In this document: positions 8,859 to 28,909 of the stretch, piece by piece
Layout of the letters: every line of letters starts with the position of its first letter
Numbering within the stretch: position 1 is the first letter of the stretch
DNA from: Microcaldota archaeon
GTDB lineage: Archaea; Micrarchaeota; Micrarchaeia; Micrarchaeales; CABMGC01
NCBI GenBank assembly: GCA_021810375.1
Contig: JAJZJB010000007.1
Coordinates: 1 to 32,142, forward strand
Direction of reading: 5' to 3'
DNA: 32,142 nt
Made by a program: the position numbers and the translations under genes
Notes under the pieces: model-generated
What the model saw: the letters and a program-made list of their open reading frames with translations, nothing else
Databases searched by the model: none
Told to the model about the DNA's origin: nothing

Positions 8859-8959
8859 CGGGTCCGGCGGGATTTTCATGCCATGCTCTACTTGGCAATT
8901 TGAACCCGCGACCGTCACCTTAGGACGGTGCTGCTCTATCCAAGCTGAGCTACGGACCC
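8859..8959 (-). tRNA. tRNA-Arg(CCT) with a 26-nt intron in the T-loop
   Basis: Acceptor GGGTCCG/CGGACCC, D-arm GCTC..GAGC, anticodon stem-loop GCACC-GTCCTAA-GGTGA, T-stem GCGGG/CCCGC. Removing nt 8873-8898 gives the standard GCGGG-TTCAAAT-CCCGC T-arm and a 75-nt tRNA. Confidence 0.9.
8873..8898 (-). other. tRNA intron (T-loop, between positions 59 and 60)
   Basis: Folds as gcggg-ttca-[aat]-tgcca-agtagagca-tggca-tgaa-[aat]-cccgc: two 3-nt bulges separated by a 4-bp helix (canonical BHB). Cutting after the second nt of each bulge restores the T-loop TTCAAAT. Confidence 0.85.
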
Positions 8960-24164: not shown

Positions 24165-24267
24165 TATTATCAGTACTATTATTTGTGGCAATATATTAAT
24201 AAAACTTTGTTTCTAGTATATCCATTTCATTAAATCATATTAGGAAAACGTGCAAAGAGTGAACGAG

Positions 24268-24339
<72 letters not shown>

Positions 24340-27015: not shown

Positions 27016-27120
27016 TGCAGGGGGTCGGATTTGAACCGACGAAGGCGCTAAGCCACAGGATCTTAAGTCCTGCGCATTTTCCGTGGCTCTGTGAACCATT
27101 CCAGGCTCTGCCACCCCTGC
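27016..27120 (-). tRNA. tRNA-Leu(TAA) with a probable ~20-22-nt D-loop intron
   Basis: Acceptor GCAGGGG/CCCCTGC, anticodon arm CAGGA-CTTAAGA-TCCTG, class II long variable arm, T-arm GTCGG-TTCAAAT-CCGAC. The D-loop GAGCCTGGAATGGTTCACAGAGCCACGGAAAA is far longer than the usual ~12-13 nt. Confidence 0.85.
27078..27099 (-). other. putative tRNA intron in the D-loop (boundaries approximate)
   Basis: Inner hairpin TGGTT-CACAG-AGCCA with flanking GAA and AAA bulge-like segments; imperfect central helix CCTG/CGGA. Excision leaves an ~83-85-nt tRNA-Leu. Confidence 0.55.
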
Positions 27121-28132: not shown

Positions 28133-28909
28133 TCATGCGTACATGGACGGCCCCTGGTCAGGAGCATTGCCGCCGAGCGTCTCGTTGGTGTCGCGGACCT
28201 TCTTTGTAAGGCTCCTTATCTTGGCCTCGACAAGTTTTGCCTCCTTCTCCAGGTCATCCAGATCAATGTTCATGTTCATTATCTTGTTAAGCCCTGCTAT
28301 CGCTAGCTCTGCGTACCTCGGATCCATTACTGTTGGATTGACCTCTACAAGCAGGTTCATCATTGGTATCTTGAATTGGTCTGCGTTGGTCATAAGTATG
28401 GCGCTTATTCCTGCTATCACGCCTTCTGCTATTGGCTTTATGCCTACGCTCCCGGCCTTTTTGATAGTCGCGGCGTCGGGAGAAGCTATGTAGACGTTGT
28501 TGGTGGGCTTCTGTGCAGGCATGCCGCTTATCGAGACAATCCTAGATATGCCGTATTTTCTTATGAAATTGAGCAGCTCCATGCTCAGCTGGTATATGGC
28601 ATCCGGAGGGATAGTGAACTCAGATATTATCAATACCGTCTTTGTGTTGTCATCCTTGTAGAGCCTTGCGGGAAACATAGGCAAGCCGTTGTGTATTGTG
28701 GCTATAGGAGGAAACAGGTCGCTCTCTATGTGTCCTATGTAATCCATCTTCAGTTTCTCTATTATATAGCTACCAGACATTGAGCCGACAAGGCCTGCAC
28801 CCGGAAAAGCTTCAATGAGTCCGTATCCCTTCAAGTTTACGTCTTTCGAGAGCTTTATGCTGATCATGCTATCAGATGATAGAGGGTAGCATAAGTATTT
28901 AAATGTCAA
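28133..28909 (-). CDS. PAC2 family protein (proteasome assembly chaperone-like, COG2047)
   Basis: LIEAFPGAGLVGSMSGSYIIEKLKMDYIGHIESDLFPPIATIHNGLPMFPARLY; ISGMPAQKPTNNVYIAS; VNPTVMDPRYAELAIAGLNKIMNMNIDLDDLEKEA. Confidence 0.85.
   Translation of the reverse strand: MTFKYLCYPLSSDSMISIKLSKDVNLKGYGLIEAFPGAGLVGSMSGSYIIEKLKMDYIGHIESDLFPPIATIHNGLPMFPARLYKDDNTKTVLIISEFTIPPDAIYQLSMELLNFIRKYGISRIVSISGMPAQKPTNNVYIASPDAATIKKAGSVGIKPIAEGVIAGISAILMTNADQFKIPMMNLLVEVNPTVMDPRYAELAIAGLNKIMNMNIDLDDLEKEAKLVEAKIRSLTKKVRDTNETLGGNAPDQGPSMYA

Follow-up and report, generated by a model that had tools for sequence, protein, structure and literature searches.

The tRNA-Leu(UAA) gene of a micrarchaeal genome, located within the 32,142-nt stretch of DNA analyzed here (hereafter the window), has a D-loop about 21 nt too long, raising the question of whether the surplus is an intron at a non-canonical site or an extension retained after maturation. 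The gene occupied positions 27016..27120 of the minus strand (105 nt including A73, with CCA not encoded) and read GCAGGGG TG GCAG AGCCTGG-AATGGTTCACAGAGCCACGGAA-AATGC GCAGGACTTAAGATCCTG ..., such that all of the excess fell after G19 and before the 3′ strand of the D-stem, as the original prediction had stated. The stems were all standard, specifically the acceptor (GCAGGGG/CCCCTGC), the D-stem (GCA/TGC), the anticodon stem (CAGGA/TCCTG), and the T-stem (GTCGG/CCGAC). Together with a long variable arm, A73, G18G19, the anticodon TAA (27063..27065, minus strand), and the T-loop GTTCAAAT, these are the features of a type II tRNA-Leu. The gene was not detected by ARAGORN under default settings, and it scored 21.1 bits with the Rfam tRNA model (cut-off 29) and 28.1 with the tRNA-Sec model (cut-off 47). 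The match to a tRNA is nevertheless not due to chance, because 55 of 60 relatives had an orthologue (complete interrupted copies measured 102-117 nt) and the insert recurred in 143 of the 164 genomes from the order.

The insert and the flanking exon together had the parts of a bulge-helix-bulge (BHB) motif. On the minus strand, the central helix was formed by CTG in the exon (tRNA positions 17-17a-18; 27102..27104) and CGG in the intron (27081..27083; CAG in many relatives), and this short exon-intron helix was flanked by two 3-nt bulges, GAA on the 5′ side (27099..27101; GTC or GTT in most relatives) and AAA on the 3′ side (27078..27080). Between them was the hairpin TGGTT-CACAG-AGCCA (27084..27098), which, like the bulges, was just as originally described. 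The claim that the central helix is imperfect was also borne out: it comprised three pairs (C-G, T-G, and G-C) and a C-A mismatch at the fourth, and owing to this mismatch the BHB of this copy is relaxed. When the cloverleaf was forced to contain the BHB, its energy was -43.2 kcal/mol, against an unconstrained minimum of -43.7; the D-stem was broken in the free minimum-energy fold, which we did not adopt given that the BHB cloverleaf was only 0.5 kcal/mol worse. A four-pair central helix was likewise considered for the copy in the window and discarded, as too few nucleotides would be left between G19 and the D-stem.

We analyzed 95 distinct insert-bearing Leu(UAA) sequences, in which pairing was compared with shuffles. 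An exon CTG or CCG paired with a 3′-terminal CAG or CGG of the insert, and the third pair of the central helix, with T or C in the exon and A or G in the intron, was T-A in 59 sequences, T-G in 28, and C-G in eight, while the C-A combination was never seen. This pair, the middle one of the helix, was intact in all 95 sequences (at most 94 in shuffles), and a fourth pair was possible in 68. Pairs 2-5 of the hairpin were kept through changes across the order; pairs 2-4 were retained in nearly all 95 sequences, and the fifth, variously T-A, A-T, C-G, or T-G, was paired in 54 of 76 cases, exceeding both the mean (38.3) and the maximum (49) of the shuffles. The terminal loop, in contrast, varied freely in length and sequence, with hairpins of 11-26 nt. 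The 5′ bulges were GTC, GTT, or GAA, and the 3′ bulges were A-rich, always with one letter fewer on this 3′ side when the 5′ bulge was GAA.

Next, we pursued the distribution of the insert. Among the 164 genomes sampled from the order to which the window belongs, no Leu(UAA) gene was found in 20, one of them 93% complete (G031), and the insert was at the same place in 143 of the 144 in which the gene was found. This count combines 131 genomes recovered by pattern with G050 and G054, G129 and G132, and eight others. Public records name the close relatives with an identical anticodon arm as Micrarchaeota, the complete genome of ARM-1 among them, alongside some FK_Sedi bins labelled Marsarchaeota. 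In the complete ARM-1 genome (G048) the intron-bearing copy was the only Leu(UAA) gene found, so this copy must work. Outside the order, a pattern allowing for any insert from 0 to 40 nt was matched by seven of 137 genomes from other orders of the class, six of which were readable and had no insert. Plain D-loops were likewise found in public contigs that come from other archaeal groups and share the anticodon arm.

The single remaining genome of the order (G040) encoded an uninterrupted Leu(UAA) with a canonical D-loop, reading GCAGAGCCTGGTCAAATGCGCAGGACTTAAGATC, in which the D-loop region was GAGCCTGGTCAAATGC and thus insert-free. All other uninterrupted matches were Leu(CAA). The uninterrupted gene was on a 438-kb contig, where tblastn placed it downstream of a PAC2-family gene that is common to the relatives and that in the window is located at 28133..28909 (minus strand; Pfam PF09754, 1.8e-42). 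Because the same gene adjoins it as in the relatives, the uninterrupted Leu(UAA) is most probably orthologous rather than a stray copy. The simplest history for these distributions would be one gain of the intron preceding diversification of the order, with precise loss in at least one species.

A tRNA-intron endonuclease was also encoded, and its type can cleave motifs that are relaxed or off-position. In the genome of the window, the gene (PF01974) was truncated by a contig end, such that only the C-terminal 169 aa were present; the 167 readable residues were closest to ARMAN-2 EndA (4FZ2, 9W2K), matching it at 2.1e-74, and kept the residues aligned to Y236, H251, and K282, that is, the full catalytic triad. 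A congener encoded the full protein of 386 aa (2.9e-158 to 4FZ2), and it is in the congener only that the ARMAN-specific loop with Y160/K161 was seen, the gene in the genome of the window ending with the contig. Relatives had open frames of 384-414 aa, several with two PF01974 stretches, and 377 residues aligned to 4FZ2. The truncated gene may thus encode an epsilon2 three-unit EndA of the ARMAN type, the protomer of which has ~390 aa in three fused units and an ARMAN-specific loop. According to reviews, the epsilon2 enzyme cleaves relaxed BHB introns located at a range of positions in the tRNA (PMC6379350, PMC4033280), and cleavage of ARMAN-2 pre-tRNA-Ile and pre-tRNA-Cys has been shown (PMC12397907).

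Collectively, we consider the extra 20-22 nt to be an archaeal tRNA intron at a non-canonical D-loop site just after G19/N20, with a probability of about nine in ten. This reading is based on the intronless orthologue, the plain D-loops of the other Leu isoacceptors (GAG, CAG, and CAA of the same genome were canonical there, GAGCYTGGTCAAAYGC), the relaxed BHB with its covariation, the normal tRNA obtained on removal of the insert, and the broad-specificity type of the endonuclease, and thereby supports the non-canonical intron with a relaxed BHB that was originally proposed, splicing itself being deduced from sequence.

The main alternative is that the insert stays in the mature tRNA as an extension of the D-arm, which would protrude as a small hairpin at position 20a. 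A retained arm would be expected to be structured and almost universal, and so is the insert within the order (143 of 144 genomes); its helix pairs are kept through changes, and G18 and G19 are in place for the elbow contact. A further point against an intron is that the central helix of this copy is limited to three pairs and the outer helix to the short D-stem. The original prediction had itself named a structured D-arm of the same length in close relatives as evidence against an intron, and taken literally this is what the relatives possess. However, one species lacks the insert entirely and has a normal D-loop, no such arm was seen in any other Leu isoacceptor examined in the clade, and bulges of the kind found in splicing substrates are present along with a matching endonuclease. 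An intron is still the better reading because of this clean loss, the plain isoacceptors, the exon-intron covariation, the endonuclease, and the hairpin of 11-26 nt with its free loop, rendering a retained arm unlikely.

Two further explanations have next to no weight. A pseudogene, or a tRNA that an insertion has disrupted in this genome alone, would fit the low Rfam score and the failure of ARAGORN, but the same insert occurs throughout the order, the stems are all intact, this is the sole Leu(UAA) gene found in near-complete genomes, and UUA codons are in use (18 in 15 ORFs of the window). An intron in the anticodon loop, returned as a Leu-AAG with a 21-nt intron when ARAGORN was run with introns allowed (-i0,60), was rejected because it needs a poor anticodon stem and gives up the perfect CAGGACTTAAGATCCTG arm; that arm is conserved among relatives and, in nearly identical form, is shared by the intronless orthologue.

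In BHB motifs, cleavage falls after the second base of the bulge. Applied to the copy in the window, this rule predicts a 21-nt intron, ATGGTTCACAGAGCCACGGAA, at 27079..27099 of the minus strand (20 or 22 nt also being possible), between a 5′ exon at 27100..27120, ending after G19 and one A (boundary ±1 nt), and a 3′ exon at 27016..27078, and it leaves a tRNA of 84 nt. In silico excision of 19-22 nt yielded tRNA-Leu(taa) by ARAGORN in every version (83-86 nt), such that removal of the insert restores a canonical tRNA. The rule predicts GG-A-AA or GG-U-AA(A) at the junction, while the orthologue has GGUCAAA, and because the two do not match exactly the boundaries are uncertain by one or two letters. 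In the proposed pathway, the pre-tRNA would fold as a cloverleaf with a D-loop holding the relaxed BHB (3-pair central helix CUG/CGG, 5′ bulge GAA, 3′ bulge AAA, and intron hairpin UGGUU/AGCCA), the micrarchaeal epsilon2-type endonuclease would cut in both bulges, and ligation of the two exons would then produce the 84-nt tRNA-Leu(UAA) with the D-loop AGCCUGGAA. Excision, the exact splice sites, and ligation are here what we infer from the gene and its relatives.

The other tRNA genes of the window conformed to the initial description, tRNA-Thr (24267-24339) being uninterrupted and tRNA-Arg(CCT) (8859..8959, minus strand) containing a 26-nt T-loop intron with a perfect BHB. The central helix of the latter had four pairs, UUCA/UGAA, and removal of the 26 nt left a perfect GGGTTCAAATCCC. 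An Rfam search of the genome, which is 64% complete, recovered ~28 tRNA genes. The suggestion that the whole genome may be rich in introns outside the anticodon loop held in part: inserts outside the anticodon arm were present in three tRNA genes, Arg-CCT, Leu-CAA, and Leu-UAA, with those of Arg(CCT) and Leu(CAA) being T-loop introns, but the majority of the genes were uninterrupted. About three further genes had inserts in the anticodon arm, as judged by eye. In the G031 genome, a Leu(GAG) with a short anticodon-loop insert was also seen (L295, G031:C8).

We noted an A12-C23 mismatch in the D-stem of some Leu(UAA) genes: of 96 distinct copies with the intron, 33 had it, as opposed to none of 27 uninterrupted Leu D-arms, a contrast with a Fisher p of about 1e-4, the true weight of which is less because the sequences are related. 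Examples among the relatives were L037, L038, L041, and L043, while pair 12-23 in the gene of the window was A-U. One reading of the mismatch is that this pair undergoes intron-dependent editing or modification in the precursor, which would also account for the rarity of intron loss, although we regard it as improbable.

Fragments of tRNA genes were observed as well. In one relative (L308, G010:C29, ~1076-2707), a second copy of the 3′ half of tRNA-Leu(UAA) was located 1.5 kb downstream of the complete gene, and between the tRNA copies was an AbiEi-like and AbiEii toxin-antitoxin pair (PF08843, 3.3e-24; PF13338, weak); the region has the appearance of a very small element that has integrated at the tRNA 3′ end. 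Lone Leu-UAA 3′ halves with no 5′ half nearby were present at G036:C24:20798-20855 (L087) and at L285, and the genome of the window had lone tRNA 3′ halves, again with no 5′ half nearby, at C12:20785-20806 (L029) and C30:1857-1906 (L026). These lone halves are likely integration scars or integrase-embedded attachment sites.

The insert is best seen as an ancient, otherwise unexceptional member of an already known class of archaeal tRNA introns. It indicates that one non-canonical tRNA intron can be maintained while an entire archaeal order with reduced genomes diversifies, and in what is usually the sole tRNA for UUA. The collection of roughly a hundred natural versions of a single relaxed BHB, together with a clean loss, should be useful for learning what the epsilon2 endonuclease accepts, and also for training tRNA finders, since ARAGORN by default misses the gene. 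Our search of the Micrarchaeota literature found no paper on this intron, and the ARMAN-2 case may already stand in the tables of Fujishima 2011.

Non-canonical BHB tRNA introns are known from Thermoproteales and Thaumarchaeota, with 673 in 217 genomes identified by tRNAscan-SE 2.0 (PMC8450103), and D-loop and T-loop introns have been reported previously (PMC6379350, PMC4033280). The insert in Leu(UAA) is like these in being short, outside the anticodon loop, and in having a BHB at the exon junctions. The closest parallel is the system of ARMAN-1 and ARMAN-2, which belong to the same phylum and in which intron-containing tRNAs are cut by the epsilon2 three-unit endonuclease (Fujishima 2011 and Hirata 2012, reviewed in PMC4033280 and PMC6379350; PMC12397907); the relaxed BHB introns at various tRNA positions and probably the endonuclease type are shared, while the ARMAN substrates in those three papers are tRNAs other than Leu(UAA). 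In Thermoproteales, tRNA introns have been gained rapidly by intron transposition (PMC4033280), unlike the situation herein, where a D-loop intron of a single tRNA has come close to fixation throughout a DPANN order and apparently derives from a single gain.
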